Shown: one piece after another, positions 23,584 through 60,165 of the stretch
Layout of the letters: the number at the start of each line of letters is the position of its first letter
How positions within the stretch are numbered: position 1 is the first letter of the stretch
Assembly (NCBI GenBank): GCA_037043015.1
Contig: CM073328.1
Location: forward strand, 10,017,495 to 10,081,494
Reading direction: 5' to 3'
Length of the DNA stretch: 64,000 nt
DNA from: Bryum argenteum
Lineage: Eukaryota; Streptophyta; Bryopsida; Bryales; Bryaceae
Position numbers and translations under genes: made by a program
The notes under the pieces: generated by a model
Seen by the model: only the letters and a program-made list of their open reading frames with translations
What the model was told of the DNA's origin: nothing
Databases searched by the model: none

Positions 23584-23845
23584 TTAACCCTCAACGATCC
23601 AAGAAAGCCAAAATGGCTTTTACAAGGTTCCCTAGGGATAAAAAACAATCAATTTTGACCATGGTAATTTCACAAATGAAAAAGAATCAACATTTCAAAT
23701 TTTACATGCAACTAAAAATGGCAAGTTAACTTTAGGATACTATAGTTGGATTTTCTTATTGATACTTAGATCAAGCTTTTATTGGCCTAAGTAGACAAAG
23801 GTCATATATACAATTTAGGCAATTTTGCATCACGATCTTTTGGGC
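23584..23845 (+). mobile_element. TTAA MITE type P1 (left arm, shared copy)
   Basis: Starts TTAACCCTCAACGATCCAAG, runs through the AAGCCAAAATGGCTTTT hairpin-like start and ends near CACGATCTTTTGGGC. Its counterpart in the right arm is 30140-30389, so it predates the inverted duplication. Confidence 0.65.
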
Positions 23846-24162
23846 TTTATCCTAGTGAAGTTCCAAATGACACAAACCTCTCTCACAAAACAACACAACA
23901 ATTTCACTAATCACAATACTACACAAATTAGAAGATTTTTAAATCAAATTACTAAAATCATGCAACAAGCTACCCAATGCACTCAATAGTGCTTTTGTGT
24001 GAACTCAATGGCTTAAGACATATCACCAATTTCGACATATATCTTGTTACCATGCACAAACTATTTTAGGGAAGTGAAATCCTCCAACTATACCTCAACA
24101 AGTGCGTGAACCACGCATTGTGTAAACTCGTTTGTTTAACATAACAACTTATTCTCTCTCGT

Positions 24163-24420
24163 TTAACCCCTAAAGATGAGACCGACCCGAATTACGCCGA
24201 TTTGCCTTGTGCCTAATTGAATATAGATCTCATGAAGTTGGAACCTTTAGAAGGTTGTAGAATTTTTCCATACCTTTCTAAAAAGCCATCTCATGCTTCT
24301 AAATTCCTTATACTGTAGGAGATATTCATGGTCAAAGTTTGAAAACACTATTTGAAATCTGCAAAAAATTGCCCAAATTCGATATATGCTTCCTTATTCT
24401 TAAAATCTGCCCAAATTTGA
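24163..24420 (+). mobile_element. TTAA element type P3 (left arm)
   Basis: Starts TTAACCCCTAAAGATGAG and carries AGATCTCATGAAGTTGGAAC and GGAGATATTCATGGTCAAAG. It has relatives at 25765-25990, 29315-29584 and 59880-60165. It directly follows a TTAA that is the unfilled site of a P1 MITE in the other arm. Confidence 0.6.
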
Positions 24421-25149
24421 TTAAAAAATTATCAAATGGAATAAGTTAGAGCAAACCCCAATTATTTAGTGTGGCTACACTGATCATATTTTAAAGTGTA
24501 CCATTGAGATTTTAGATTTACCTTGTTAATTTTGATTGTCAAATTAACAAGAGTAACCTCCAAAGTTTACACAAGAAAGCTTAACATTTTATAGGAATTT
24601 ACAAATTTTCTTTTGTCGAAATTTGAGAATTTGAGAATTTCTCAAAATATATTTAGCCTAAAATTTAAAAATATATAAAAGTACCTACTCACCATTCTTT
24701 TTTTCCATCAACAAAATATAATTAAAGCGATGCATGTTTACCGAAACGTTGTTTTTAGACCTTGTTTAAAAAAATGCATGAAGGTTTAAGATCCAACTAA
24801 ATCTCTTATATGTGTATAAGACGACTCGACTTAGTTATCCACATGGAAAGGAATACGAGCATAATGTTTGGGTGACAACCATCAAGTTCCCATTTGCACA
24901 AAGTAGATTATGGCTTTCAAAGAATGCCCAAAAGAAAGCTATGCATCAACTTTGATGTTATGATCTCACAAATGGTACATATCCAACATTTGCAAATTTT
25001 TATGGTAGTACTTACAATAGCAAGGTTTGAAATAGTAGCAAGGTTTGAGATTGCACGATAAAAAGTACCAAAATCCACTAAAAGAGCATACCATACACTA
25101 AGTTCTAACAAAGTAGTAGAAGACCATGGTTTTTGCTTAGGATAAGTAC

Positions 25150-25440
25150 ATCCATCTTCAGACACTGAAGCTATTCATCATACTTAGAGTGATGACACGT
25201 GTAACTTAATATTTTTTGGTGATTAGCAAATAGAAATACAAGGTTTCTCTATTTTGTGGTATTTTTAAGTACTTACATATTTGATTAGTCTTCTTAGAAA
25301 TGACTAATATATGTACACTTATAGTCGTTCACCCTACTGCATGTATATATGAGGAACATATTATTCCAAAAAAATCTCCATTCCATCACAAGGAAATCTT
25401 CTTTTTGGGTTGTCCAATTATGTGGGGCCGTTCAAATATA
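25150..25440 (+). repeat. Dispersed repeat, copy 1
   Basis: Clear similarity to 56883-57150 in the same orientation: GAGTGATGACACGTG, GATTAGCAAATAGAAA, ACAAGGTTTC and TGAGGAACAT. The family is not identified. Confidence 0.55.
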
Positions 25441-25764
25441 GGTTCTCTTACCCTATGAAGTTCCAAAAAACATGCTTGGATTCCGAGTGTTTAAATTACT
25501 TGCATCTAAACATGGCTACAAATTTGCTAAATACAATGTTGAACAATGACTCCTTCATTTTCGCTTTTTGTGAATCTTGAATAAATGTTGTCTCTATTCG
25601 CTTTTAATTTAATTTCTGGGATTTGATATCTCTAGATCTTTTGTACAAAGTATCACTTTCACTTTTGATTTGCAGAATGTGATGTTCTATGACAATGGAT
25701 GGTGACTCCTTTTCTTTTGACTGTATTGCTAAAGAACCTTTTTTTTTTGCTTTAACCATGATGC

Positions 25765-25990
25765 CTAAAATGAGCCTTAACAGGGTCGAGTTGACTCAGG
25801 CCCTCAATTAGTAAATATAAATATCGTAAAGTTGAAACTTCCTAGACCTTTCCGAATAGTCATTTCATGCTTCAAAATTCCTCATACTTTGGGAGATATT
25901 CACTTTGAAAGTGTTTTGAAACACTTTTAGGATCTGCCCAAAACTGCCCAAACAGAGATATATTCTTCTTTATTCTCGAAATCTGCCCCA
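25765..25990 (+). mobile_element. Fragment of TTAA element type P3
   Basis: Matches 24200-24420 (GGGAGATATTCA, CTGCCCAAAACTGCCCAAA, ATTCTCGAAATCTGCCC). Ends are not preserved. Confidence 0.45.
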
Positions 25991-26615
25991 AATCAATTAG
26001 ATCTTGGTAACTTCAAAAACTAAGTACCAAAAACTGAGATTTTACTTTTTCCTAGTTTTGGTTTTTGTACATGTAGAAGAGGTACCAAGGCATGGTCTCA
26101 CCATTTTTTATTTTTATTTTTATTATTTTTATTATTTTTATTTTTTTTATTTTTTTTTGGGTCGAAGACCGGCCTTTGTATTTGCATTTCAACATACCTC
26201 CACGTTAAGCATCAGTATATGTGGCATAGGTCCAATAAGGGTAAAAATTGTATAACCATAATCCTAGATCACTTTGGAACAAGAATTCAAAGAGCCTCAA
26301 CTCAAATCCACTCTTAGAAATGGTTTTTTTTTTGGCTCACATAACATTTCGTAACTATTTTACAAGTAAGGGAAAAACTATTTTCTAAACTTTGATCGTT
26401 CCAATCTCACAAATGGCAAAGAATTTGAATCTAAGATTTGGTACGCACATACACGTACAAGTAAGGTACTATATCTTACGGTTACACACTGAAAAATTTC
26501 TTAAAAGTTACAAATTTGCACACCTTGCAATGACTGATGGCTGTTTTGAGGCTTTTTGACAGTTTTGAGGCCTTACGACATTAGGGGTTAATTTATGGTG
26601 AATTTTACGATGTTG

Positions 26616-26885
26616 TTAAACCCTAAAGATTCTTGATACTAAAGGAAAGAAATCACAAAAGTAACCTTCTTCTACTTCAAGTCTGGTAAAGCTCACTTTA
26701 TTTATTATCTAAACTATTCATTGTAGGATCTCAAAGTTAACTTGACCTCTACTTATATATCAAGTTTGAATTGTTGATTATTCTTCATTCATAAGATCAT
26801 AATGGTCAAAGGTGACTTGAATTTTTTTCATGCAAGCCCTTACTCTTAAAAATCCATTCCATTTTTAAGAATTCTCGAAAGTTAA
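26616..26885 (-). mobile_element. TTAA MITE type P1
   Basis: TTAAACCCTAAAGATTCTTG at the start. The interior resembles the copy at 29589-29849 (AACCTTCTTCTACTTCA, GATCATAATGGTCAAAG). The far end is degenerate. A further TTAA end (ATTAGGGGTTAA) lies just upstream at 26580-26591. Confidence 0.6.
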
Positions 26886-27064
26886 ACTTTCAAAGAAACT
26901 TTAATGAAGTATTAAGCAAAATAATGTAATTTCACTTTCAACCATCTCGAACTCCTCTATCCTTATTTACTCAAAATCAAATGATTTGAATGACGCTCAC
27001 ATAGAATTTTAAACTCCAAATGTACGATTATTCTTAGAATTCTCGTGCGCTAGACAATCGTGAA

Positions 27065-27560
27065 CCTCGTTGTATAGGTTCCTCAAAGTCCTTTGAGAAA
27101 CAACATGTCGAGAGCCTCTATGGCCCTATACAAGAGTTGTTAACTAATGTTACAAACGTTAATTGCGAACGGTACCACTAATTTTCACAAGTCACCATAA
27201 TGTTACAACACTAATCATCAAACCATAACACTAAATGTGAGACCATGCAAACTTTCTTCTTGCAAGTCGAAGAATCTATTGGAAGTGGTGCAATTGGTGG
27301 CTTGAAGAAAAGACAAGGGACAATGATTGCAATGGCGACCTAAAGTGAACACTAATCTCAAAAACATTGAGAAACAATGTTATTTCCAGAACTCATCCAT
27401 TACACTAATCTCCACGTAACACTAATTAACAACTCTTGTATAGTAGCTCGTTAAGAATGAGCATAGTGTTCATCACAACAAAAGTCAATAGTTTCATCAT
27501 TGGAGTGATGACCTCCAAGGATAGTGAAATGAACAACTCTATTCACGTCGACCCAAAAAT
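27065..27560 (+). mobile_element. SINE copy lacking its head, split by a MITE
   Basis: The body of the SINE (CTCGTTGTATAGGTTCCTCA, then ATGAGCATAGTGTTCA and TGACCTCCAAGGATAG) is present without the tRNA-like head. It is cut in two by the element at 27129-27440. Confidence 0.65.
27129..27440. mobile_element. MITE inserted in a SINE, TA flanks
   Basis: The left end TACAAGAGTTGTTAACTAAT and the right end read backwards TACAAGAGTTGTTAATTAGT form an inverted repeat of about 25 bases. TA (or TATA) flanks both sides. It has no coding capacity. The insertion is younger than the SINE it interrupts. Confidence 0.7.
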
Positions 27561-27779
27561 AGGTTTCGAGTTCTTCTTTCACCACACAATCATTCAATTA
27601 TAAGATTCCAATTTCTCCCTTACACAAAAGTTCTTATATCAAAACAAAAATTTAATCTTGAAATTGAACATCCTAAATTTCCAAGGTTTACAATTACTTT
27701 CTACATTATATTTCTTGGTTATAACCATAATAATCGAGTGTCCAAAGATTACTTCAACAAAATGATTAAAAAAAGAAAA

Positions 27780-27890
27780 TGAAGCATGTGAAGCTTTTGG
27801 AAGGAATGATGCAAAACAAATATGCCATGTGAGCACAAAATCCAAGGAATGATGCAAAGCAAATATGCCATGTGAGCACATAATCCAAGG
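27780..27890. repeat. Two tandem copies of a ~47-base unit
   Basis: GGAATGATGCAAA(A/G)CAAAT and ATGCCATGTGAGCACA(A/T)AAT follow each other twice. Confidence 0.6.
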
Positions 27891-27954
27891 AATGTGAATT
27901 AGAATCTTCTTGCAATGTACACACAACACGGAACATTAAAATTGGACTCTCGCG

Positions 27955-28450
27955 AAAAAATATCACTTCTCTAGCAACTCGTAAAAAAAAGAATGTAGTG
28001 CAAAGAGCATATCTACGTACAATTTTTTCTTATATGGAATTTTCGTCCTCCCGAGGTGAGTCAACTCTTTTACTCAACATTTACATACGTACGGATACAA
28101 CAAGACTAAGGTTACAATTTTTTCGTCAAAAGAATATTACATATCTAGCAACTCGTAAAAAAGAAAAGAATGTAGTGCAAAGAGCATATCCACGTACAAT
28201 TTTATCCGTTAAAAGAATATTACTCGTCTAGCAACTCGTAAAAAAAAAGAATGTAGTGCAAAGAGCATATCCATGGTACAATTTTTTTTACGATGGAATT
28301 TTCGTCCTCGCGGTGAGTCAACTCTTTTACTCAACATTCACATACGTACGGATACAACAACACTACGGTACAATTTTCTTACATGGAATCTCGTCCTCGC
28401 GGTGAGTCAACTCGTCTACTCAACATCCGCATACGCACCGATAGTACCGT
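27955..28450. repeat. Complex tandem array
   Basis: Three blocks of GCAACTCGTAAAAAA-GAATG with TAGTGCAAAGAGCATATC alternate with three blocks of GGTGAGTCAACTC followed by ACTCAACATT and CATACG(T/C)AC. The order is not strictly regular. Confidence 0.6.
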
Positions 28451-29314
28451 ACAATTTTGTGCATTATGATGATGACCATGGCCACTTACAAACGGACACA
28501 CGACTTTCAAGAGCGCTGCCAGAGTGGCGTTATTGTGGTCCAATGTTACGATACTTTCATGGCATACAAAAAAACTTCGCATCAGATTCGTTCGTAGTAG
28601 TACAGCCATGTTAGTTATAGAAAAAATGGGCATTTCACGTGGCACCGCTTCTTTGAAAGCAGAATTCTGTTACGATTTCGAATTAATTTACACTATCTTG
28701 CTGCGAAATATCCGTCCGTACCTCTCCCTCTCTTTTGAGTTTTGTATTTTTAACCCCTAAAGGTGAGCACCCTCAAAAGAGGCGAGATGTAAAATTTTGA
28801 ATCTTTACAAGGTTTGAAGTATGTAACCGTGGGATGTAGTACTTAACTTAGACATGTACATGCGTACCAAAATTTGAAGTCAATTTTTCTCACCATTTGT
28901 GTGAATATAGCGTTCAAAGTTGGAAAATGGTTTTTTTTCCATGTTGTAGAATGGTAAAGTAAATTATTAGGGGGCCAAATAAACTTAGGAATATGTTTGA
29001 AAAGGAAATTTGACATGAGGCTCTTCACATTCAATGTTTCTAGGTGAGTTAGGACATGTTTATGCAATTTTTACCCTCGTGTGACGTATAAACCTGAGGA
29101 ATTGCTTGATCTTTCACGTGGAGGTGTGCTGAGATTGAAATACAACGGCTCATTTTCAACACTTAAAAAGGAGTGTAAAGAATTATTGGATTGAAGATCT
29201 GAATGGTAAGATCATGCCTTACTATCATTTCTACATGTACAAAAAAAGAAAATAAAAGATCTTGAAGAGAAGTAAAATCTCTACTTTTGGTTAAATTTTG
29301 AAGTCTCTCTGTTT

Positions 29315-29584
29315 GAATTAATGTTGGACAAGATTTTTGAGAATAAATGACCATATTCTGTAGTTTGGGCAAATATGGGCAAATTTCACATAGTGTTTTA
29401 AAAATTGACCATGAATATCTCCTAAAGTGTGAGGAATTTAAAAGCACGAGTTGAACTTTTTGGAAAGGTATAGAAAAACACTACAACTTGCCTAAGGTTC
29501 TAACTTCATGAGATCTATATTTAATTAGGCATAGGTTGCCCAAAAGCAAATCGTCCCAACTTGGGTCAGTCTGGACTTTAGGGG
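29315..29584 (-). mobile_element. TTAA element type P3 (right arm)
   Basis: Mirror of 24163-24420, ending CTTTAGGGGTTAA. It abuts the P1 MITE at 29589 through a single TTAA. Confidence 0.6.
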
Positions 29585-29588
29585 TTAA

Positions 29589-29849
29589 CCCCTAAAGGTC
29601 CTTGATACAAAATTGTTTGAATTATCTAAAAGAACCTTCTTCTATTTCAGGTGCAAAGAAAACTCAATCTAAGCATTGATTAGAAGATCCAACAGTAGGA
29701 TCTTGAAATTAACTTGACCCTTTTCTCAAATGTCAAATTTGAACCGTTAATTTTTCTCCAATTTTGAGATTATAATGGTGAAAGTTGGCTGAATTTTCTC
29801 CCTGCGGAAATTCCAAAAAGCGATTTCCGCTTTCTTGGACCTTCACGGG
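29589..29849 (-). mobile_element. TTAA MITE type P1 with proven empty site
   Basis: A 261-base body starting CCCCTAAAGGTCC and ending GGACCTTCACGGG, with TTAA on each side (29585-29588, 29850-29853). The matching place in the left arm (CTCGTTTAACCCCTAAAG, TTAA at 24163-24166) has a single TTAA and no element. It therefore inserted at TTAA with duplication of TTAA, or left without a scar. It has no coding capacity. Confidence 0.85.
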
Positions 29850-30139
29850 TTAAACGAGAGAAAAATAAGTTGATATGTTCAACAAACGAGTTTACACAAT
29901 GCGTGATTGGAGGTGCGGTTGGAGGATTTCACTTCCCTATGATGGTTCTTGCATAGTAAGAAGATTTATGTCGATATTTGTGATATGTCTTGATCCATTG
30001 AGTTCACACAAAGGCACTATTGAATGTTGGGTAGCTTGTTGCATGATTTTAGTAATTTGATTTCAAGATTTTCAAGTTAGTGTAGTATTGTGATAGTGAA
30101 ATTGTTTTCTGTTTTTTGAAGGAGGTTTATGTGGTTTAA

Positions 30140-30389
30140 AAGTTCATAGGGATCCGTAACGCAAAATTGCCTAAATTGTAGATATGACCTTTGTCTACTT
30201 AGGCCAATAAAAGCTTGATCTAAGTATAAGAATAGAATCTTAAACTTAACTTGCAATTTTATTTGGATGTAGAATCTAAATCATTGATTCTTTTTCATTT
30301 GTGAGATTTTAATGGTCAAATTTGGTTGATATTTTTCCTAAGGGAATCTCATATGGCCATTTTGGGTTTCTTAGAAATTTAGGGGTTAA
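30140..30389 (-). mobile_element. TTAA MITE type P1 (right arm, shared copy)
   Basis: Mirror of 23584-23845; ends AAATTTAGGGGTTAA. The other end is worn (GGATCCGTAACGC). Confidence 0.6.
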
Positions 30390-30763
30390 CCATCAACTCT
30401 ACTTTATCCTTGGGTGCTCAAATTATTTTAGCACCAACTAATAGATGATATTGGAAAAACAATCATGTATGAATTATTGATATCTCAGATGTCACCTATG
30501 GCTCAATTATGAATCATATAAGTTAAAGGTATTAACCGTTAAAAATTAAAGTAGAGTTTTGCTGAGTAGAAGGTTACACTTTAAAGTAGGTCTCTAAATC
30601 ACGTGTAAAAATTATCTTATAGGAATCAACAATTAATTAAGATAATAAATAGGAATCAACGATTAATTAATAAGTGTTTTGTTGAGCACCATAGTAAATT
30701 GTTACCTCATATATTAAGGATTCTCTTAGAACCTCTTTACACAAAGAGTACCAAAATAAATAA

Positions 30764-30768
<5 letters not shown>

Positions 30769-30833
<65 letters not shown>
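30769..30833. repeat. (TA)n microsatellite
   Basis: About 32 uninterrupted TA units inside the right arm. The left arm has only a short T/A-rich stretch at the matching place (about 23280-23300). Confidence 0.95.
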
Positions 30834-30835
<2 letters not shown>

Positions 30836-30939
30836 AATTACAATCTTAAGTGCTACTTAGGTCAAGTGTGCTCATATCAGATAGTCTCAAGACAATTTTA
30901 CACGAGGTAGAGCATAAATAAGTTGATTCCTTTTTGAAA

Positions 30940-33691: not shown

Positions 33692-33724
<33 letters not shown>

Positions 33725-33877
33725 GGTGTTTTGTTTCGGTGTTGCAGGACTCATGTTGAAGTGGCTGCGGAGGAGGAGCAGGAACGAACAGGAGGACTGT
33801 AGGCGGAGTAGCTTTTTGTCAGCTTCACGCGTGTCGGAGAAAGAGAGGTTGCTGTTTCAGGTTGAAGAAGAGAGCTG
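31931..33877. other. Spacer and 5' leader of the S40 gene
   Basis: The left part is AT-rich without a gene. A small palindrome (CAATATTCAAATATC at 32422 against GATATTTGAATATTG near 32481) is present. From about 33180 the DNA is GC-richer with CT-rich runs and poly(T) (33650-33670, 33691-33723), as expected of promoter and leader. Confidence 0.4.
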
Positions 33878-34005: not shown

Positions 34006-34014
34006 GTGGTCGTG

Positions 34015-35983: not shown

Positions 35984-36895
35984 TTAACCCTTAAACGTCC
36001 TAGCCTATTTTAGCCAAATTACAAATTTTAAAAAAAGGTGTCATAGATGAAAATGAATATAAGCTATTAAGATCTCAACCTACAAAAGTGTAATACACTT
36101 GTTGTAGGTCATGTGGAACAAAATTCGAGTCATGAGGTTTCATAAATCAAGAGATTAAAACGTATTAGTACTAAAAAAAACCGCAAAATTTCATCATTTT
36201 CACTGTAGAGTGGAAATTCTACCAACAAACCAATCGCAATAAAAATATCACTAACTTCGAAGTTGTTTGCCTTCATCTCATTGGAACTTTTGCTCCAAAA
36301 AAATTTCTTGGCTCAAATAAGAGCCTTGCAATGAAGAAAACTACAAAAAAGTTTATAAAGGAAAATTTGAATAAACTAGACACTTTGCACTCACATTCAT
36401 GCCTTATCTTCAAAACACCTTCGATCTTGTAAGGTTTCTACAACCAACATCAAGACTCTAATTGGAAGCCATTGCAAGAAATAGCGTTAAGATTCAACGT
36501 GGATGAAGAAGTACATCATTCATTTTTTCACTTTTTTTGTAGACAAATCATCATTAAAAATCCAATAGCAAAATTATTTGAATAAAAAACTTCCAACTAG
36601 AATTTTGTTAGGTATGACCTTAAAATCGTGACCATTAAAAGAAATATTCATGAAAACTATTTTTGATTTCACATAATTAAGTTACCAATGGTAAAACATG
36701 GCCCATGCTTGAAAATCCAAAAACAAGAGCTGTATTCACTAAAATGCGTGCCATTAATTCATATTTAATTGTATAAGTGTGGAGTTTGTTAACTTGATTT
36801 GGTACCCAAAACAAGTGATTTCATCCAAAACGGACCTCAATGTTGCCTTCCATCCAAAATGTCATTTTTCTACATTTGGTGCGTTTAGGGATTAA
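35984..36895 (+). mobile_element. TTAA element type P2, full length (912 bp)
   Basis: Starts TTAACCCTTAAACGTCC and ends GTGCGTTTAGGGATTAA, so both ends match TTAA plus a CCYTAAACG-like inverted end. The interior is similar over its whole length to 54768-55735. No transposase-like frame is present. Confidence 0.75.
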
Positions 36896-38403: not shown

Positions 38404-41400
38404 TTACTCCCTTCCTTGAGCCCACATCATTTTTGCTTCAGACAGTTGTCGTTGTTTTTGAATATCTTTTCTTGTTTGAAGCAATTGTCGTATTCTTTCA
38501 GTAGCTTTTTCAATGTGACTCAATAGTTGTCTTCTATGTAGAGCCTATATATCCAAAAAAATATTGTTAGCTCATTAGTGATGTTATCTATATAAAAAAA
38601 AAAAAGTGAAATTATACCAAATTTCTTTTCCTCACATTTTTTTAATAGCTTTCATGCTTGGGAAATTATGTCATTGACTTGTAGAGCTTCAAATTAGATC
38701 AATCTTACAACTATGATATCTTAATTTGATCATATACCTGTTTTCGTGATGTTTGATTCACTATGTTCATTGCTTTTGTATATTCAAGATTAATTTGAAC
38801 ATTTCTTCGTCGCCGATCTTCTTCTTGTTTTACCAAATATGCTCTCAACAATTTATTCTTATGTGCGGCCTTGGTTTCAATGTCCTAAATTTTTTCAATT
38901 GTAAATCAACCATAAGATCAATTCTAATACACAATAATATATAATTTTAATATTCATTGATACTGATTACCTTTTTCTATACTATCACATCTAGCTTCTC
39001 CTTGTGTTACATGATAATCATAAAAGGATATTATTGATCTACAGAATTATCTATAGAATAAAAGAATGAGTGTCGACGTGGTTATACCGTTTTTTTGTGA
39101 AAGAGTAGAGAAGGAGACGAAGGGGCACAAATACAAGGGGACATGAATATGAGGAGACACGAATATGAGGGGACGTTAAGATGAGGGGATATGAATACAA
39201 GGAGACAAGGGAACATGAGAACAAAGGAATCATGAAAGGAGAGAACAAGGGAACCAGGAAATACGAGAACAAGGGAAACAGGGAATTCAGGAACAAGGGA
39301 ACATAGAAGGAAGGAACATAAGAACAAGGAAACAGAACTGTTGTAAAGAAGAAGAAGAACACCAGACCCGTGAGGGTTGCGTAAATAAAGTGTTCGTTCG
39401 ACCTACCCTTGATGATATGCCCACAAGACTGAACCGTTGTAACATATTACAGATTCAAGAAACTTTACCTGAATACGCTTCTCTCTTCTTGCATATGCTT
39501 GTTCCAATGCTTTTTGTCTATCTTGTTCCTTCTTTTCTTGCATCATGAGTTTCTCCTTGAGTTGCTTATCTAACTCCACTTGTTTCTCAGCTTGTCGAAC
39601 TGCTACTGCCTATTGTTTCCAAAACAATTGTTATACATAAGAATTTCTTCATGTACTTCTATCATTTGTATGAGCTTCATAAAATTAAGATTTCTTGTTG
39701 TAAGAAGAAATTGAACCATAATCTTGTAAAAAATAATTTTACCAAAAGCTTCAATCAATTTCAAAAAGGAAAAGATACATACTGCATTCTTTGCATCAAA
39801 ATCATCCCTCTTCTTTTGCAGCAAATCATAATAAGCTTGTAAAGCTACGGCTTGACGCTTTTCAGCCTCAGCTCGTGCTATAGCATTCACTTTCTTTATT
39901 TCTTCATTTTTGATTGCTTGTATCCTTTTTCTTTCGGCATCTTTTGCCGCTAGTTCCTTGTTCCTTTCCATAGCTTGCTATAAAATAAATTGCAATGGTA
40001 TGTTAAGTAAGTATATAATTGTGCAAATTTTCAACAAGACCCAATGTTTTCCACAATATAGAGGAGAAATTCCAGCCTATTTAAAGGCGGGCGTGATTAG
40101 AGTGTTCGTTCGACCTATCCTTGGATGTATGCCCGGAGGTCATCACACCAATGGCGGGACTACTAACCCCTCTTGGGGTGAACACTATGCTAGTTCCTAC
40201 CTAGTTACCAGTGCCTTAAAGATACCCGACATGGTATCCCCCAAAGGGCTTTGAGGTACCCGTACAATGAGGTCCAAGAACATTCCAACATAGTTGGATA
40301 GCCTATGGTGGTGAGCACCACGCCGGCATGGGGAATGGAACCTGACGACCTCCTTATTGGGGTCCATGAACCCTAATCACCAAGCCAAGGCTTCTGGTGC
40401 CTTTCCAGAATATACTAAAACTATTGTTGTACTCTGATTGCAATAAAGTTCACAACAAGACTTCTTGTTGCACTTTATTTTTGAGAAGTGAAAAAAACTC
40501 AACGTTATCTTTTCTCCATAAAATAAAATCATAGTAATGAGGTTTTACTATATATTTTTTTACTTGAGTTACTAGAAAGAAAAATGATTTAGAAGCTTTA
40601 TCAATGTAACAAAGTTTAAAGTAGTACCTGCAATACAGCTTCTTGCATTTTCTCTATCTCTTTTCGGAATGCTTCTTGTTTTTCTGCTCGTTCTTTAGCT
40701 GCTGCAAGTGCTGCTTTTTTGGCTTTTTTCTATTTAATATAAAAATAACTTACATACAAGTCAAATTCTAACAAAAATATTGACATTACAAAGTTACAAC
40801 TAAGCTTCATATTATAAGGTTTTTTAAATTTATTTACCGCAACTATCTCTCTTTCTTTTTGCAATTTCAACTCTTCTTCATATTGCTTTTTTGCCAATGC
40901 TGCTGCAGCTCTTTCCAATTCTTCTTCCTACTAGACAAAAATTTACAAAGAAACTTAATATTATGATTCAAGGCTCTTTGAATACATACATACATACACA
41001 CACATATTATATACACACAGCGACACACACACATACATACATACACACACATACATATACACACATACATACACACATACATACTAACTACTTACATACA
41101 ACATACTACATACATACATACATACACATACATACACATATATATGACGGATAATTTTCAAGATATGTTCCAAGTGAATATCACCTCTTCTCGTCTTTTA
41201 GCTTCAATTGCTGCTTGTTGTGCAGCAAATTCTTTATCTTTTCTCTTTTTTGCTTCTTTCTGAGATGATGACATAATGATAACCATTATTAATAGTTCTT
41301 ATTTGCTAGTATCTACCAAGATGTTACATTAACCCCTAAAGATCCAAGAAAGCCGAAATGGCTTTTTGGGGTTTCCGCAGGAAAAAAAGTCAGCCAACTT

Positions 41401-44400
41401 TGACCATTATAATCTCAAAATCGGAAAAAAATTAACGGTTCAAATTTGACATATGAGTATAGGGTCAAGTTCACTTCAAGATCCTACGGTTGGATCTTCT
41501 AATTAATGCTTAGATTGAGTTTTTTTGGGCCTGAAGTAGAAGAGGGTCCTTTGTGATAATTTAGACAATTTTGTATCAAGGATCTTTAGGGGTTAAAATA
41601 CAACTTTGGAAGTATGATTGAGATGTTTGAAATAGAAACTTTACTTGTAAATATTAAACAATAATTATTACTTGTTCAGCTTCTTTTCTCAATTGCATTG
41701 CAGCCACTCGAGCAGCATCTTCTTGCATTTTCTGATAGGTTTCTGATAATTAGATCTATTGAGTTGCAAATAAAATAGGTGTAGATTAGGATGCATTAAA
41801 AAATACTCAATGATATTTCATAATTTAATAAATAACACTACTAAACAATCCCCATAATTGATTCAATTTTTGTGTTTAGACACCCACTTTTTGGATATTC
41901 ACTAAGTAGCGTTAAATGGGAAACAAATATGCAGCATTGCATCGTAAGATTATTTCACTCTAAGGTAATAATTGTTTGTTACTTGTACCCTTGGTACTAT
42001 CAATCCAATTGTGTTGATCTACACATATTGTTCTAAAGAACAAATGAAGTGGAGTCGAAGTTTCAAGAAATGAAGTCCTATATCACTACCTTTGATGTCC
42101 GTCTAAGTCTAATATGATATAGTTTGAAAGTTTTGCCAAATTTAGTGCTCATGTCTGTAAGTTTGTATATGGAGTGGATACTCTATATGATTTCTTTAGT
42201 AATGTGTTTTTGAAGTTTTCTTTTTATATACTATATAGAAGCAAGTAATCAAGTCATAGAAAATTAGAGCGTACTTTAGCAGCTTCTTCTTGTTGTTTTT
42301 TCTTTTCTCTTTCTTTTTCAACACGCCTCTTGGCTGCTTCAGCTGCTTGAAGAGCCTACTTAAATTTTAAACACTTATTATTATATAAATATATTCCAAG
42401 TCATAGTTTCTTATGATGTCCATCAAGTGACACATTTAGAAAGAGGTAGAAACTCTTTTTCACATGGTTATATTTCAAAGTTTTAAGAAGTTTCCGATCC
42501 AAAACTCATGTTAGAATTAATTGAGATAGTTTCATAACCCTTAATAAGTGTGATATTTTAATTTTAATTTTTTAAAAATGAACTATCACGAATGAAAATC
42601 ATGACAAATTTGCAACCGTAGTGTATAGATTGAACCTCACCTTGAACTACTAGAATAATAACTTGTTTGATCAATTAAACCAACTATATTATAGGATGCA
42701 ATTAGGAACACAATTGAAACTTGGTCAAAAGTATAAACAATAACCTAAAGCAGTAGCTGTAAGTTCTACATCAAATGTGTAAGCGTTTCACAGCCTTAAT
42801 TTGACCGGGCAACCACAATCCGGCCAATTTGAACGGATAGTGGCAGAAATTTTGGCACGTGCTTACGATAGGTATACAATACCCACTTGGGCATTACTCG
42901 TTTTAAGGAGCTTGCATCTACAAGGTTGGGTAGAGCCCTCTCCGACACATGGCTCCTTAAAATCAAGAACGCCCTTGTTGGGTATTCTTTACGTTATACT
43001 AAAAAAATGATTGTAACTCGGATCGTAAAAAATAACATGTTTTTCTAGTACAAACATGTATGTATCTTATAGAAGCAAACCTTTTTAGCGGAATCACTTG
43101 GACCCTGGCCTTCTCCAGACCTTGCAGCTGCTGCACCCATGATTTGTCCATCGGCAATTAAAATACTTCCGGTATCTTTCTCAGCTATAATCCTATTTCT
43201 TTCGGCAAGTAATCGATCCACCTTTTCTGCACAAACAAAAATTTATCAACTTTTAACCCCTAAAGGAGAGAGAGGCCCAAATCGGGTCAACTTGCTTGGA
43301 TAAGATATGACTTTTGTACATAGACGGAAACTTTTACAGCATGTATTTCAAGATCCATACAGTAAAATTTGATAAAGTCGGTGGGTAGACTAATTAGACG
43401 GTTACAAACAAAATTCTATGGTTGAACATTCTACAACTTAATTTTCAAGAAAATTTGGAAATTTGTTGTCCACGAATTTCAGATATGGCCATCTAGGAGG
43501 TTAGTATTGAGCTTCTCCATTAGAGATTAACTCACCTCACACTTAAACGGATAATATTGTTTTATATTGTATCAATATTACATATATTTTTTGAACAAAA
43601 TAAGGTCTTTTAGTGCATGACCTTTTCTTTCTTTTTCGAAGTATTGGAATTTCATTGCTTGGAATTCTTTTGACAACCCTCTTTCTGTAAAGTAGGCGAA
43701 GTCTCTAGAATTCAAAAGTATGTAAAAGACGATTCAATACTATGCTCATATTGTTTTGTTTATAAATTTAGAAACATGTTCTGACTCATTATGGAAAATG
43801 TTGGTGTATACCAACCTTGTAAGTAAGTAGTAGTTTTCAAGGTTGATTAGTTTCTTGAATGTAATATTAGATTTCATGCATAAATATTCAACAACATCTT
43901 TTACCGATATTGAATTTCTGCTGGATCGATGCCAAGGAGAAGACATGCTTGTAAGGATCTTGGTGTATTTACTAGCTCACCCGGTTCCGCGCTATCTGTT
44001 GATGATGAGAAAAGTATTTCTTTTGAGTTTTTAGATATTGATAAATATAGACTGAATTTTTTTATGAAAATATGTCTAATGTCCATATCGTAGTTATTCC
44101 CGATGACATTATAAAGGCTTCAAAGATCAAAGTGGATACCAATATTTGTAAGCGACAAATCTCTTTTTGCTACTCCCACTCCTTTGTGATAAGTAGCAAC
44201 CTAAGTGTAGCATATATGATGTTAAGTATTTTTCGTGATATTCTAGATTTATTTGGTAAAAAAACAATTTAATATATTCATAATTTAAAATTCTCTTGCA
44301 TTTTGATAAGTGACTATGGTAGTAAACTATCTAGACTCTACTTTTATTATTTTTGATAAAAATATTCATTGATGTAAAAAGATCAACCAACCTTCCATGC

Positions 44401-48770: not shown

Positions 48771-48853
48771 AATTTACGATCTACCAACCACAACTCAACC
48801 TTTTGTTCCATTCATCCAAATTGGGCATCCCACATTATTTAATGCCCCTACAC

Positions 48854-49127: not shown

Positions 49128-49131
49128 ACAA

Positions 49132-51260: not shown

Positions 51261-53169
51261 ACATACAATTCATTGGAATAGTCAAGTTGAATCACTACTA
51301 TTCCCCACTGTAGCAGGCTATGAAACATTTTCGATGTATACTGGTCATCATGTGGTGTAGCATTCTTGATTCCTTCAGCAAGGAATGTTTGTGCAGTGAA
51401 CACAACTCATTAGGAGAACATTACATACAATTAGCCCCTGAAGTTAATGGTCGGGGAGATTTTCACACCACAGTGGATAGAACAACCCTTCAATTGTGTC
51501 TTAGTCCCCTTCTGTTGTACGTTCTCTGAATTGGCACTGCCCAAAGAGACAAACGACGGTTACCCGAAACTTAATCAATTATTTTGACTTTGATATCAAT
51601 CATCGATCCGGCCGAACTTCGGGTGGCCAACCGCAGTATCGAATGTCAACTTTGCAGATCAGTCTTCTTCATCTGATTGTCTCTCAATTTCTCATTACTT
51701 GCTCTTTGCAGTACCATACTTCGATCACTCGACACCACCCTACCAACCTTATGCAGAGACTCATCTGCTTTTGAGCACTTGTTTACACACTTGAAGTTAC
51801 TGTAGAATTGTTGCCATACTTCGATGTATGTCGGTGGGTCAGTCGATGAATTCGTGCTTACTTCGGCGCCTGACATGCGCCTGCCGTAGCTTCCTGACCT
51901 AACCAGGAAAGTGGAGGAATCGGTCCCGCAGTAGTCTGATCTATAGCACAACTCCCGAGAAAATAGTCTACCCAGAACTCTGTAACGATCGAGAGACTAT
52001 GGCAGGAATGTCGAGCTACGATATTCCATTCGGTTACCGGAGACTCTGTGACGAGCTAGCTAGTGTGACTACTGTACGTTTGGGGAAGTCGACATTGTTG
52101 TTGTTGCTGGTCCCGTCGTCCGGTCGATCGATGTATGGATCGTGGCCATTGTAGCAAGCTGAGGTCCGGTTGAAGTGACTGAGAGTTTGGGTGCCGGCCT
52201 GATGTGATACTGAAGTGGACTGACTTGAGGTGGTGTTGTGCAGTGCAAGTAGTACTACTGTGGCGTTTGCAGGCAAAAGGTGCAGGACAAGAAAGGAATT
52301 GGGATCAAGTGCGTGTTGATAAAGAGAACGGTGCTATCACCGACCTTTCATTAGGCGGCGAAGAAGAGCCGCTCTCTAGATCCAATCCGGGTTCACCACG
52401 GAGGTGGTGGGCCCCAGTTTTTGGGCCCATTTTTTTTTGTTTTTTCATTTTTGTAATTTTTCATTTTTCATTTTATTCATTTTTCAAAAAATAAAATAAA
52501 ATGTCTATGCCCCCATTTTACCTTAGGGGGCCTCTCAATGGAATGTTATACGTAAAAATACCGGGTACCTTTTTATTAGTCCCCCTCCATGTTTGGAAAT
52601 TCCATGAGAGAACCTAGATTGAATTTAGTGTCTGACCTCTTCTTCTAACTTAGGGTTCTAATCACAAGAAGGAAAACAACAACAATCTCAATGACACCAT
52701 ATATTATAGTCGCCATATTGCTATAACTCTAGTAGCACACCTCTATAACATCACACGTTTGGAAATGTGGAATTAAAATAGATTAAAGATACCCACTTTA
52801 GCCCTAATTCTTGGAATAAGTTAAAGTCTGTCTTGGAAGGGTATGAGTGTACTTTACTTACCCCTGAATTTGAGAGGTCCAAAATGATTGTTTCTGGAAT
52901 TAATGTGTAGTAATCAGAATATAGGATACTAAGATTATTAACACTAAATTCTTAGTAAATTTGTGTCTAATTAGTCTACCTATCAAGTTATATCAACCTC
53001 CTTATAATTGTGATCTTTAAATGTGATTTTATTGAATACATGAACATCTACACGTGAGTGTTTGCATTTATACTCTTGTTCTATTCATTATACTATGTTC
53101 ATTTATTTCAATGAATTCCCTTCCTTAGTTCCATAGTCTTGCAAAGTTCCTAGTTTATTGAATATGGAA
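51261..53169. other. 3' UTR of the WRC gene and spacer
   Basis: No gene accepted. A minus-strand frame at 51646-51951 is less AT-rich than its surroundings but has no recognisable motif. T-rich DNA follows at 52430-52500. Confidence 0.35.
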
Positions 53170-54307
53170 TTAACCCCTAAATATCCTTGTGTTTTTGGAA
53201 GCTCCAACACCCAAAACTGCTATTTTCTACCACTTTGAGGTCATGGGAGCACGAACCAATTTTTTTTTTACAATTTTTAGTAACTCCAACCGTAAGATCT
53301 CAAAGACAACTACGTTGTGAAACAATCCTCAGAATTTCAGCCGTTGGATGTGCATCAGATGTGAGATCGTAACGTTCAAAGTTGATGCGGAGTTTGTTTT
53401 TTGGCCTTGCCCGAGAAACATTGTCCACTTTGTGCAAAGGGGGACTTGATGATTTTTTGGCCAAACATTTTGGTCATATTTTTTTCCAAGTAGGTATCTA
53501 AGTTGAGTATGCGTGTGCAAAATGTTGGAGGTTGCCCTTGTTTGTAAGGCAAAAAGTAAAATTGTTATGTACATGGAAGGTCAAATATCGGCTTAGAGGT
53601 GCGGTTTTAGAAATATCAACATTGTGGAATGACACTTTAGAATTTCTAGAAAATGTACGGTGAGGACATTGCTTTATGAACATGCAATGTATTAGTGAAA
53701 AAAAAAAATTCAAAAACTTCAAATCTCAAGAATTTGTGAGATTCCACTGAAGAATGAAGGAAAAAGCAAGTGAAATGAGAGGGGCAACCATGGAGGCTGG
53801 GCTCCCTTCCCCTCCTAAAGGGGTCCATCATGCGAAAGGCAAGAGGTGCCTGACACATGCCCAAGATTTGAAAAGGCTAGTGACATAAATTGATGATGGA
53901 TGGGCATGAAGGTGCTTTGGAGGATTAGGATTGGATTGAGGATAATTAGGTGGTTGAACTCTTGTCAATAAGAGCTCTGGAATGCCGGGTCAGTCCGTTA
54001 TCAGACCCTAAACCCCCTGCCCCGTGAGAAGTTTGTTTGTTGTGCCCCTTGTCTGCCATGTTCTCCAACCTCCCGCTCGTTGGTGCAGAGCTCAGCCCGA
54101 CCTGCCCTCTCAGACCCCCAATTCTAAAATTTGCCAAATAACCTCATAAAATACAAATTTTTTGATGCAATTTTTGTAGCAGTAACCTTGGAGGGTAACT
54201 CACACACCCTCAAAAAATCACCCTAAAATATCAATTTTTACTAAGAAACTAAGGGTGACCAAAACAGCAAAAGACCGTTTCGGTTTTTAAGGAGCTTTAG
54301 GGGTTAA
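53170..54307. mobile_element. TTAA element type P4 (about 1.1 kb)
   Basis: The left end TTAACCCCTAAATATCCTT and the right end read backwards TTAACCCCTAAAGCTCCTT match in 17 of 19 bases. TTAA is at both borders. The interior has no transposase frame and differs from P1-P3. A GC-richer block at 53950-54130 may be a later insertion. Confidence 0.6.
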
Positions 54308-54319
54308 ACTCATTTTACG

Positions 54320-54450
54320 ACCGATGTGCATAGAGTGTTCGTTAAACCTATTCTTGGATGTTTATGCATGAAAGTGATGACAGCATTTGTAGGACCACTA
54401 ACTCCTTTCAAAGTGAATGCTATGTTGGTGCCAAGTTGGCCACTACACTC
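54320..54450 (-). mobile_element. 3' fragment of the SINE
   Basis: AGAGTGTTCGTTAAACCTAT, then GACCACTAACTCCTTTCAAA and GTGAATGCTATGTTGGT, match the 3' half of copy 2. Confidence 0.55.
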
Positions 54451-54767
54451 GTACCGCTAATGTATATAGTACTATGATACATGTTGTATTGAAGATCCAA
54501 CAATATCTGTGAACCACTACATAATTAGTGTGTACACAAAGGATCATAAACCAAAAGGTTCAAAGACAATGTGACGACCACAATCCACCTATTTTTGATG
54601 ATTCAATGAGGCTCTATTGCATCTCGACATTTTCCAACAAGTCATTCATTCACCTCGCGCTTTGATCCCATGGGTTTTGGTGTATCTTGAATTCTTGTTT
54701 GCTATCCAAGCTAAGTGTTTTGGTTTTCTTGATATATTGAGGTTTGTTCTTGTGGAGAAATTAGGGT

Positions 54768-55735
54768 TTAACTCCTAATGGTTTGGTTCATTGGTAGAGA
54801 AAAGAACACATTCTTAAAAAAAAATGTCATAAATGGAACTGATGGTAAGTCTTTTGGATCCCAACTGTACAATCTTGTAGTATATATATTTTACATCATG
54901 TGGGTCAAATTGTGAGTCATGAGGATTCATAGATTGCAAGGTCGTAACGTATTAGTGCTCTAAAAACGTCACAAAATCTCAACATCTTCACTTTGAAGTG
55001 GAGGTGCTACCAATATACTTATTGCAATCAAAAAATCACCAACTGCACTGGTGTTTACCTTCAATAACACCCTTGAACCAAAACAAAACCATGAGCAAAA
55101 TTTATTTGCGCAAATAATGACCTTGCAAACTTCCAAAAATTTCACAAAGGAAAAATAGTCCAAAACTCAACCCTTTGCACTCAAATTTGTGGCTTGTCTT
55201 CATTACATCTTTGCTTGTGTCAAGATTTCTACCACTAAAAGTACACTCTAATTGGAATTCATCCCAAAAAATAAAGTCAAAATTCAACGTTGGATGAAGG
55301 AGATATAGCTTCTCAAAAATCATCCATTTTTCACTTTTTCCATTGTAGAAACATCATTGCAAATCCAGTACCAAAGTTATTTGGATCAAAAATCTTCTAA
55401 CTAGAAAGTTGTTAGCCTTCATCTTGAAATCATGATTCTGCCCAAAAAAAATCATGAATTACTATTTTTGATCTCACATAACTAGCTTGCAATTTTAGAA
55501 CATGCCAAATGTTTGAAATCCCAAAACGAAAGCTGTCTTCATTAAAATGCATTCCATGTACTCATAATCTATTGTATGGGTTTGCAATTTTTATCACACA
55601 AATAAGACTTGATTTGTGACTCAATCCAAGTGACTTCGTCCAAAACCAACTCGGCAAGAAGAAGTTATGGCTCTTCAAAGTTGCTGCAATCATCCAAAAT
55701 GTCGTTTTTCGGCATTCGGCCCGATTAAGGGTTAA
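54768..55735 (+). mobile_element. TTAA element type P2, second full copy (968 bp)
   Basis: Starts TTAACTCCTAATGG and ends CGATTAAGGGTTAA. Collinear with 35984-36895 (GAGTCATGAGG, GTAACGTATTAGTGCT, CATCCAAAATGTC). No coding capacity. Confidence 0.7.
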
Positions 55736-55840
55736 GCAAGTTTTCACAATAGGGGCGATAAACAAGGTGAGAGTGAGGAAAAATATTTTTCTTCTATGTA
55801 AAGTTAACCCAACCCATTGTTCATTATCATCAATTTTTAA

Positions 55841-56073
55841 TTAACCCTTAAAAGTCCCTTGGGGATAGTATGTACGCTGTTGTATAATTAGGATTTGCTA
55901 CCAACAAGAAACTCTAAACTGGAATTGTAATAGCTCACTAGAACCGCATTAATTCAAATGTCAACTTCTTCTTTGAACTCAAACCCATTAAAGGTGTGCA
56001 TTCACTCCAAATACAACAAAAATACACTGTATCCTACTGGTCGCCACGGCATGCTCAGACCTTTAGGGGTTAA
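55841..56073. mobile_element. TTAA MITE type P5 (233 bp)
   Basis: Starts TTAACCCTTAAAAGTCC and ends AGACCTTTAGGGGTTAA. Inverted ends and TTAA at both borders; its own interior. Confidence 0.65.
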
Positions 56074-56227
56074 CTAACATTGGTCCTTTGGTTTGTACTT
56101 TGCACATGCACCAAAGCAATTTATTACGAGATTATTATTACGGCTAGTTAGGACTTCCTAACAAGAAACTATCGTTATGGTAGTTGCGAGGTAGAAAGCT
56201 GACTAACTACTCATAATCGGGGAAGTA

Positions 56228-56444
56228 CACTAAATAGGTAGATTAGTGTTAGATTTTTATAAGATTTGAAAATGCTACAAGTTTTTACTTTTGGTACAAA
56301 AAATTTACCAAGAGTATTGATTCCAATACTATGTAAGGATCCCCATCTTGACCATTGTAGAGGGTAAAAATATTGACTAACAGTAAAAACTTATAGCTTG
56401 TTTACGTAAATTAGTGTATCTAACACTAATCTACCTATTTAGTG
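56228..56444. mobile_element. MITE with perfect 27-base inverted ends, TA flanks
   Basis: The left end starting CACTAAATAGGTAGATTAGT (56228-56254) is the exact reverse complement of 56418-56444. TA is on both sides (56226-56227, 56445-56446). The interior of about 160 bases is non-coding. Perfect ends suggest a recent insertion. Ends resemble those of the element at 21423-21737. Confidence 0.8.
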
Positions 56445-57789
56445 TAGTATTCCTTCATTAGAATCCAAGATAAACTTCTTAAATGATAGCAATTGGTGCC
56501 AGGAAAGTTCCAAAAAGTGAAAATTGACCCTACGAAAAAGAAGATAAAAAAGAAGGATTTGACCAAAACTTCCTGACTGATCACCTTTATTTAAAGGGAA
56601 ATCATTTTGACTAATAAATTTGACTCTAACACCAAACCAATTGCCATGCATGCATTGGGGAGGGGGGGGGGGGTGCATCAGGCTAAATTGGGTTGCTATT
56701 ACAATAGCAAAACAACCCATTGAAAGTTGAAGCTCCTTTTGACAAATTGATTTGAATAAAATTTCAACTGAAGGGTACTTTCCTGCCAGAAAGGTGCCCT
56801 GAAGTTTCAAGATATTTTGACTGTTGCCCCAACAGGGACTTCTGGTCCGAAAAGGGGAATACCTGGGGTAGGTACACCTATTTTCGGACACTTAAGCCAT
56901 TCACCATACTTGGAGTGATGACACGTGCGATTTAGCATTTTTCAGTATGATTAGCAAATAGAAAAGACAAGGTTTCCTTATTTTTGAGGCATTTTTAAGT
57001 ACTTATTACAAATTTCAAAAGTGAATAATATAGGTACACCTGTAGTTGATCACTGTGTTGCATGTACGTGTGAGGAACATTTCATTACAAGGCAATCTTC
57101 ATTATAGGTTGTTCGATTATGGGGGGCGTTCAAATTCAGGTGTGCTTACTCTTGATAGTTTGTAAGTAAGAAAGTACACCAGGTCAATTACTTTAAAGTC
57201 AGAAAGTACATCAGGAACTTTCTTGATCCAAAAAAAAAGTCATGTTTTCAGAAAAATAAAAAAATAAAGCATAGGAGTTATACATCAATTAGAGTGGGTA
57301 ACATATTAGTCTACCATACCCAAGGTATCTTTGGACAAACCCATCAATTTCTTTATTCGATCTCACCGTCATTTTTGAGAATAAAATCAATTGAAAAAAA
57401 CCCAAAGCTGCAGTGGATCTCTAACTTCCTGTTTTTTTGGTTTTTTTTCAAAAAAAACCAATTTTAACATCTTCTTCGCAAAGGAAAAAATGTTGCATGA
57501 GGCTGCATGTCCATTGACCCACTGATCATATAGTACTGTACAAGACAACCTTGCGCACATGGGTCATTACCCGGAATCAGGGAGACCACCACGGCTGTAA
57601 TAGAATAGACGAGAGTCTTCAAAGTGGACCACCTGGGTGGCACTTTTTCAAAAGAATTGAACCCCCTCGGACCATTTCGGAGGGGGGGGGGGGGTTGTCC
57701 GTTCTTTTTTCATGTGGCTCCATGTGCTGAAAAACAAACCATCCCCGACCAGCTCATCATCCTCCTGCCATTTGGGAGCCATGTCTCGA
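56445..57789. other. Spacer with dispersed repeat copy 2
   Basis: 56883-57150 repeats 25150-25440. Poly(G) runs occur near 56665 and 57685. No gene is supported. Confidence 0.4.
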
Positions 57790-58835
57790 AACTATAATAA
57801 GATGCGAGCAATTTTTGTTGCATGGGGAATATGAGTCGAAAGATCGAGCACGTGGAATCATCATTTTTGGACTCTTTTACAATGAGTTATGAGTTTTTGA
57901 AATATAGGTGAATCTAAATTGCTGCCCTAAAGTGACACCCCTATAATGTTTGCAGTGGTGGCTATTATGTACCTAGGAATGAAGATTACTAGAGCCCTAT
58001 AATAAGGTGCAAGCAATTTTTGTGCATGGGGAATTTGAGTAGGAAGATCGAGCAGGTGGAATCATCATTTTTGGACTCTTCTACAATGAGTTATGAGTTT
58101 TTAAAATATAGGTGAATCTAAACTGTTGCCTTGAAGTGACACCCCTATTATGTTTGCAGTGGTGGCTATTATGTACCTATGAGTGAAGATTACTAGAGCC
58201 AAGTCTAGAAACTGAAATAAGGTGCAAGCAATTTTCGTGCAGGGGAAATATGAGTCGAAAGATCGAGCACGTGGAATCATCATTTTTGGACTCTTCTACA
58301 ATGAGTTATGAATTTTTGAAATATAGGTGAATCTAAACTGGTGCCCTAAAGTGACACCCCTATAATATTTGCACTAGAGGCTATTCTGTACCTATGAGTG
58401 AAGATCACTAGAGCCAAGTCTAGAAACTGTAATAAGGTGCGAGCAATTTTCGTGCAGGGGGAATATGAGTAGAAAGATCGAGCACGTGGAATCATCAATT
58501 TTCGACTCTTCTACAATGAGTTATGAATTTTTAATAGGTGAATCTAAACTGGTACCTTGAAGTGACACCCTTATAATGTACGCACATGTGGCTACTATGT
58601 ACCTATGGGTGAAGATTACTGGAGCCAAGTCTAGAAACTGTAATAAGGTGCAAGCAATTTTCGTGCAGGGGGAATATGAGTCAAAAGATCGAGCACGTGG
58701 AATCATCATTTTTGGACTCTTCTACAATGAGTTATGAATTTTTGATAGGTGAATCTAAATTGGTCCTCTAAAATGACACCCTATGATGTTTGCAGTGGTG
58801 GCTATTATGTACCCATGAGTGAAGATTACTAGAGC
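57790..58835. repeat. Tandem array of five ~212-base units
   Basis: Units begin near 57790, 57997, 58209, 58426 and 58638. Each has AGATCGAGCACGTGGAATCA, CTCTTCTACAATGAGTTATG, AAGTGACACCCCTATAATGT and GTGGCTATTATGTACCTA. Units are roughly 85-95 percent alike by eye. Each carries a similar minus-strand frame of about 60 codons (MMIPRARSFDSY...), probably a by-product of the repeat. Confidence 0.85.
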
Positions 58836-59879
58836 TTCATTATGGGAGGTGCTCCATTTTGGACCAGTGTACTATGTGAAACGCTTTGAGATATCCTACT
58901 CAACAAATGAATGACTTGCGTCTCAAAATCTACGGTGGAAACAATTTATATGATGAGCAAAGGGTGTCCCTTGAGTCTTCCTTTAGCAAGTAGAATATGG
59001 ATCTTTATCAAGCAATGCGAGAAGAGCTTTCACATCAAACGACGAGCTTAATCTTTGAACATTATGATTTCACAAATGATGCACATCTAAAATTTGATGT
59101 AGCACGTTTTGCTAGTATTTGATTTCAAAATCATGCGGTTTAAAGTTCTCAAAACTATACAAAAGCATGATCCATACCACCATTCGTGCAAAGGGGTGAA
59201 AATCTACACTTCTAGAAGTTTGAAAGCAATGTGTGATTATGTGGTTGGTTTTGGAATCCTACCTCATAACACTAACTAGAGAATGGATAATAACTTTATA
59301 AATGAACTCTCTAAAAGAAAATTGAATCTTTTGCTTAGTGGGAGGGTTGTCATGTTTCAACAATCATGTTGCGCATCTTGAGATAAATATATACATACTT
59401 ATAGACTAATTTTTGTGCATTTAAATACCCATCATCAGAATATTTTAAATACTTTAGAAGTACAAAAAAATTGCATGTATGTAGTCACATTCCTGAAACA
59501 AATACGACATATTCTTTGTACTCTAGTAACCATGTTTCCGAGCACATGTCTTAGCATATCCACTGATTCTGGGTAAAAGAGATAAACAGTCAATCTGCAT
59601 AATTACCATGTGTTTTTAATTTATTTTTATTTTTATATAATTTTTAAACAATTACCAGGTGTGTTAATGGAACTGAATCTTTGAACAGAGTCCACTCATT
59701 GCGGTAGGGTGATACTCGAATAAACATCATGGAGAATATAATTATTTACTAGGAACTAGTGAAGAAATAATGAGAAGACATGTTATGCAATTTTCAATTT
59801 GACGTTGTATTTTGAGGTATGTAACTGTAGGATCTAATAGTTAACTACTATCTAATTGATTTTAGGCAGAGTTTGAGAA
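58836..59879. other. Spacer
   Basis: No gene. A block at 59385-59530 recurs near 21120-21190 and 21760-21850. Confidence 0.35.
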
Positions 59880-60165
59880 TAATTGAGCATATATCGCAGT
59901 TTGGGCAGTTTTGGGCGGATTTTGAGAATAAGTGAGCATATTTTGCAATTTGGGCAGCGTTGGACATATTTTGAATTTTGTTTTCAAACTTTGACCATGA
60001 ATATCTCCTAAAGTATGCGGAACTAAATCACTTTCTAGAAAGGTACGAAAAACATCTACAACATAGAAAAGGTTCTAAATCCATGCAAACTAGAAATAGT
60101 AATTAAGAGGCTAATGAGAGCCACATCAGCCCAAAAACAGGCCTCATGATACTTTTAGGGGCTAA
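59880..60165 (-). mobile_element. TTAA element type P3
   Basis: Mirror of the P3 copy at 24163 (TTTGGGCAGTTTTGGGC, TGACCATGAATATCTCCTAA). It ends in CTTTTAGGGGCTAA, with TTAA changed to CTAA. Confidence 0.55.

Follow-up and report, generated by a model that had tools for sequence, protein, structure and literature searches.

TTAA-flanked elements in a land-plant genome, most likely that of a moss, are very probably non-autonomous piggyBac family members

Introduction

Transposons of the piggyBac superfamily are inserted at TTAA target sites and have ends that start with CC, and miniature inverted-repeat transposable elements (MITEs) of this superfamily are known from insects. Their excision is precise, a property of interest for engineering plant genomes. 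The described systems used here for comparison are piggyBac itself, whose transposase is represented in the PDB by 6x67 and 6x68 (Trichoplusia ni), and piggyBat (9c0f). A window of 64,000 nucleotides (C8:10017495-10081494) from a genome of 258.8 Mb in 25 contigs was analyzed, in which an initial annotation had noticed abundant TTAA-flanked MITEs. The elements of this window are very probably non-autonomous members of piggyBac (PF13843, DDD) families in a land plant that is most likely a moss. The DDD core of piggyBac can be aligned with the transposases of this genome, and the TTAA sites and CC-starting ends agree; unlike for the piggyBac of 6x67, the host is a land plant. The piggyBat transposase also matches a transposase fragment (locus L024) of this genome, although host and sequence differ.

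The initial annotation had called piggyBac scarce or little described in land plants, and most of the open-access papers searched agree. In its accessible passages, a 2022 review of land-plant transposable elements lists six superfamilies with terminal inverted repeats (TIRs) and never names piggyBac (PMC9033089). The accessible parts of three other papers speak against the statement: a general review of plant transposable elements includes PiggyBac among the superfamilies following Wicker et al. (PMC10794571), a survey of small genomes describes piggyBac as isolated from insects, fungi and plants (PMC10813416), and members are placed in most eukaryotic lineages (PMC9499001). For the fern Ceratopteris richardii, also a land plant, the available repeat table gives 1,230 PiggyBac copies with 122,417 bases, i.e. 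about 100 bp per copy, without describing their structure (PMC6890710). A description of bryophyte piggyBac elements was not found by title, abstract or opened passage among the open-access papers listed; in the accessible text of a Niphotrichum paper both 'piggybac' strings belong to 'piggybacking'. Because the search covered open-access literature only, a prior description elsewhere or in a database annotation is quite possible.

The superfamily itself is known; unusual for a land plant are its scale, its diversity and its youth. piggyBac is here a large, structured and recently mobile part of a plant genome. If the genome houses a diverse and still-mobile piggyBac community, the superfamily would rank as a major native one among the DNA transposons of a land plant, at odds with the list in the accessible passages of PMC9033089. 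This raises the questions of how piggyBac entered or persisted in the lineage and how the plant silences it. If true, mosses would also be a source of plant-adapted piggyBac tools, and a plant-native piggyBac family could be tried for genome engineering.

Results and discussion

The profile PF13843 (DDE_Tnp_1_7) was searched against the genome, and at least 116 scored matches were obtained from 777 first-look candidates, all above the cut-off (best 7.4e-82) and spread over contigs C1-C11, while 0 of 14 control genomes contained a PF13843 match. As stated in the initial annotation, no transposase was detected in the window among the 116 scored matches (661 further first-look candidates were left unscored). 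Twenty-four of the at least 116 loci were opened (L009-L028 and L086-L089), and both ends could be placed in 17 of them (13 elements plus L086-L089), so that DDE_Tnp_1_7 transposases do lie between the same kind of ends in the same genome. All 17 elements begin with CCC, and they are flanked by TTAA on both sides in 16 cases and by ATAA on both sides in one (L087). Including TTAA they measure 4,469-8,392 bp, exact TIRs of 4-16 bp are found in 16/17 (L087, cut one base off, shows 3 bp), and the TIRs start with CC, as the piggyBac superfamily requires. The ends read CCCTTAA... in L009, L010, L018 and L024, CCCCTAAAGATCC in L014 and L022 (B1 elements), CCCCTAA[CG]TGCCC in L019 and L020, CCCCTAAA in L028 (B3), CCCT[GA]GAACGTCGGAGC in L011, CCCCAAA in L017 and L021, CCCCTCAAGGCCCATG in L016 and CCCCTAAAGGCCCA in L086-L089. 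The longest element, of 8.4 kb, is that of L011 (merged coordinates 426-8817), which ends in CCCTGGAACGTCGGAGC and CCCTAGAACGTCGGAGC and may have nested insertions inside.

With the transposase fragment of L024, only two matches were returned from the PDB at E up to 0.001, namely 6x67 (E 4.5e-30) and 9c0f (E 3.2e-26). When aligned to the 6x67 fragment, the first and the third catalytic D column were conserved in 21/21 cores and the second in 20/21, L015 having E at this position. Identity to 6x67 was 24-28% over 343-369 aligned residues in nine proteins. Twenty transposase cores fell into five clusters that are at most 47% identical to one another; L089 belongs to the B cluster, with 69-78% identity. 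In the opened copies L010, L024 and L086-L089 the transposase is present as one long frame of 824-909 aa from the first ATG, as compared to 594 residues in 6x67, and at E up to 0.001 no Pfam family matched the extra N-terminal part (390-440 residues in L024 and L086, the two proteins scanned). The C terminus looks cysteine-rich in L010, L018, L024 and L089, and L086 stops short of that region.

The MITE types of the window (P1, P2, P4 and P5, Table 1) and a further 586-bp type were compared with the transposase-bearing elements. P4 resembles the B1 elements L014 and L022 at both ends: its left 336 bp align with their last 332-336 bp at about 75% identity (E 2e-59 and 7e-59), and its right 52 bp with their first 52 bp at 81%. 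When the left end of P4 was matched to the genome, the hits at C2:9675139 and C4:2663437 coincided exactly with the element ends of L022 and L014, respectively. In the 586-bp type, the first 212-238 and the last 167-206 bases align with elements of B1 and of B3 (L028). P1 begins like L019 and the B1 elements (first 46 bp, 85% identity, measured on the copy at 41329..41596), has a 98-bp internal stretch in common with B2, and carries the same end letters CCCCTAAAGATCC as B1. The ends of P1, P4 and the 586-bp type are thus common to transposase-bearing elements, and P4 and the 586-bp type are internally deleted relatives of piggyBac elements. An autonomous partner elsewhere in the genome had been predicted, and this holds for P1, P4 and the 586-bp type, for which transposase-bearing relatives exist; for P2 and P5 the 13 full-length elements compared included no partner. 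P2 and P5 might therefore belong to a different TTAA-using superfamily, with only P1, P4 and the 586-bp type being piggyBac. Besides the missing partner with both ends among these 13, the weak terminal inversion of P2 favors this reading, but the ends of P2 and P5 are CCC-type or near-CCC, both types are flanked by TTAA on each side, and the opened loci were only 24 of at least 116, so that we consider it unlikely. The assignment of P2 and P5 to piggyBac, resting on ends, TTAA and copy borders, is accordingly a provisional one.

The target-site duplication was read from occupied and empty sites. The P1 copy in L039, and likewise in the duplicated paralogues L040 and L041, has the arrangement ATAA|CCCC...GGGG|ATAA. 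When the L039 flanks were joined, three full-length uninterrupted sites were present among the 40 matches listed (L075-L077), and a single ATAA was found in 3/3. With the joined L052 flanks, 40/40 matches listed span the join (40 of 208 candidates); in the eight sites inspected (L078-L085) the insert was absent in 8/8, with a single TTAA in six and ATAA in two. Because the empty sites carry a single copy, the duplication is 4 bp long, normally TTAA and rarely ATAA. The initial annotation had asked whether it is exactly TTAA; ATAA was seen at L039 and L087. No other duplication length was seen in the elements and empty sites examined, and no autonomous relative of another superfamily appeared, other transposase superfamilies not having been searched for. 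The empty sites may never have been occupied. A candidate empty site of L018 in L035 (80% over 139 bp) was set aside, as its target letters had drifted.

The host sequence of the ATAA insertion in L039-L041 is repeated on many contigs, and the empty copies L075-L077 have a P1-like end beside the site; for these reasons the MITE was seemingly carried along inside a larger repeat. Where different elements adjoin, one TTAA is common to both, as at 29585-29588 of the window (within 29577-29596) and at 7586-7589 of L017 (within merged coordinates 7582-7597). This is expected if a TTAA flank serves again as target, which seems to have happened with an existing flank where two elements abut.

The same sites bear on two other readings. 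The elements could be Tc1/mariner MITEs of the Stowaway kind that duplicate TA and end in ACCCC..., in which case the outer T and A would reflect mere target preference, and at a canonical TTAA site the sequence alone does not distinguish such a TA duplication. In L039, however, a TA element would have retained GGGGT at its right end, but GGGG|ATAA is found there and one ATAA when the site is empty; the full-length element L087 is an independent second ATAA case, and the transposase between the ends is PF13843. The ATAA case shows no 2-bp TA duplication, and the Stowaway reading, which we hold to be highly improbable, was rejected. Targets of TTA or TAA are typical of PIF/Harbinger, and both are contained in TTAA, which would suit Tourist-like MITEs with a 3-bp duplication. 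This reading is barely credible and was likewise rejected: the ATAA case gives 4 bp, not 3 bp, and P4 and the 586-bp type are internally deleted piggyBac relatives (a Harbinger transposase was not searched for). The attribution to piggyBac, made initially from TTAA and CCC ends, is in contrast supported by PF13843 genes between the same ends and by the 4-bp duplication.

About twenty TTAA-CCC ends had been counted over the window. Exact TTAACCCYTAAA ends number 14 (mean 0.10 in 100 dinucleotide shuffles, 0/100 reaching 14) and, with one mismatch allowed, 22 (shuffle mean 1.23, 0/100 reaching 22); as both counts exceed all 100 shuffles, the estimate stands. Genome-wide, exact TTAACCCCTAAA occurs 14,192 times (7,028 + 7,164) as compared to 172 for the reversed-pattern control, and exact TTAACCCTTAAA 8,992 times as compared to 229. 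The P1-type end CCCCTAAAGATCC, queried without TTAA, gave 2,086 occurrences (reversed control 2), and TTAA directly precedes 1,746 of these (83.7%; reversed control 0). The plant telomere unit is CCCTAAA, and the similar letters of the ends might suggest chance or telomere-like repeats. Yet the ends stand inverted at the borders of dispersed repeats, and the reversed patterns are about 80x (TTAACCCCTAAA) and 39x (TTAACCCTTAAA) rarer. This explanation is excluded by the copy borders of P2, P4 and P5 and by the reversed-pattern controls, leaving it a negligible probability.

The copies differ in age. In L086-L089 four copies that are 99.8% identical lie at different sites; over 5.7 kb, any two of them are separated by 1-5 substitutions and 6-10 gap columns, and their flanks are different, from which a very recent transposition follows. 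P1 copies are older, with 85-98% identity among ten; three of the ten (L050-L052) were multiplied along with the host repeat that contains them. By the known piggyBac mechanism, the transposase of full-length copies would bind the ends of short copies, which would be excised at TTAA and inserted at a new TTAA; with the transposase acting on their ends, the short copies would thus have multiplied in trans. Whether the genome houses a still-mobile, diverse moss piggyBac community, with at least five deep transposase clusters, more than 23,000 exact ends belonging to full-length and non-autonomous copies, and one very recently moved family, is in our judgement evenly balanced.

Several points weigh against the piggyBac interpretation. 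No movement was observed. Of the P1-type ends, 16.3% are without TTAA, and when 11 such places were opened (L039-L049), four represented the ATAA site and four one other duplicated site, i.e. eight lay in two duplicated host sites, and three were single cases. Among the 24 opened loci, L013 and L023 have one end only, and L012, L015, L025, L026 and L027 were not extended. The ends of the 13 elements and of the young family were sought with patterns starting TTAACC, so that TTAA was partly preselected in the 16 cases that show it; L087, with its ATAA, escaped this pattern and was located by alignment. Borders independent of the pattern are given by the alignment stops of L086-L089, by the CCCCTAAAGATCC query without TTAA and by the empty sites. 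The transposase frame has 824 aa in three of the four young copies and 909 aa in the fourth. Finally, P2 and P5 lack a transposase-bearing partner in the comparison above, and P2 is almost without a perfect TIR.

Elements in the window

The features of the window are collected in Table 1. All six elements that had been named with both ends carry TTAA at both outer edges (6/6). At least five internal types had been proposed, of which P1, P2, P4 and P5 were borne out; P3 had no coordinates, and positions 24163 and 28750-29588 hold a further type. The left TTAA of the P1 copy at 29585..29853 (29585-29588) is the right TTAA of the element at 28750..29588. Two extra ends had been reported at 6305-6316 and 6665-6677, and both are present (the second at 6666-6677), but they are two right-hand ends and not one pair.

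Table 1. Elements and single ends located in the window.
Feature	Position	Strand	Remarks
Right-hand end, one mismatch	6305..6316	-	outside the initially annotated span
Right-hand end, exact	6666..6677	-	outside the initially annotated span
End of a copy related to 28750-29588	24163..24174	+	77% alike over 278 bp
Further non-autonomous element	28750..29588	.	TTAACCCCTAAA at both ends
P1 MITE	29585..29853	-	261 bp plus TTAA each side; 88% identity to P1 at 41329..41596
Right end, P1-like relative	30378..30389	-	about 69% alike to P1
P2 element	35984..36895	+	912 bp including both TTAA
P1 MITE	41329..41596	+	260 bp plus TTAA each side; 13-bp exact TIR
End	43253..43264	+	first 34 bp with 82% similarity to the 586-bp MITE type (weak, E 8e-5)
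P4 element	53170..54307	-	1138 bp including both TTAA; internally deleted relative of B1 transposase elements
Second P2-type element	54768..55735	+	968 bp including both TTAA
P5 element	55841..56073	+	233 bp including both TTAA

Genome copies of both P2 elements, P4 and P5 were listed after scoring 40 first-look candidates for each query (candidates may overlap between queries). The counts of full-span matches include the window copy. For P2 at 35984..36895, 11/46 listed matches span positions 1-912 (5,751 first-look candidates), and for the second P2-type element 22/50 span 1-968 (6,666 candidates). P4 gave 4/44 full-span matches (2,653 candidates) and P5 40/43 full-length matches (957 candidates), the other 39 of which show 97-98% identity. 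The two P2 elements are 69% alike over 860 bp, and their perfect inverted repeats directly inside TTAA are only 0 and 1 bp long. P2 is not a clean type in its borders either: most other matches to 35984-36895 cover 1 to about 851, so that fewer copies support its right border, and for 54768-55735 many matches begin near 35-38.

Host genome and chromosomal distribution

The initial annotation had placed the elements in a plant, and this agrees with the genes of the window, which match Senescence_reg (1.4e-44) and WRC (7.5e-9), both plant-specific families, and with 90 genome matches to the chlorophyll a/b-binding protein family. A light-harvesting complex (LHC) protein of the genome matched 9vfj_2 best in the PDB (620-aa chain, two stretches), followed by 8htu and 7xqp and then by 8c29 and others. 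We take 8htu and 7xqp to be entries of the moss Physcomitrium patens, and on this assignment the host is likely a moss. Contamination was rejected as a source, since the transposase matches lie on C1-C11 and the MITEs of the window stand beside plant-type genes.

Contig C1, at 44.09 Mb the longest one for which a length was shown, differs in its content. It has 5/116 transposase matches as compared to 19.8 expected by length, 98/2,086 P1-type ends as compared to 355 expected, and 0/90 LHC-family matches; 37/40 listed copies of the L052 host repeat (40 of 208 candidates scored) are located on it. C1 could represent a sex chromosome or a heterochromatic chromosome. Tandem arrays with weak chlorophyll a/b-binding matches were observed at C5:14730833-14760859 and C2:25064562-25094660. 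These may encode early light-induced proteins, a family that is expanded in plants tolerant of desiccation.

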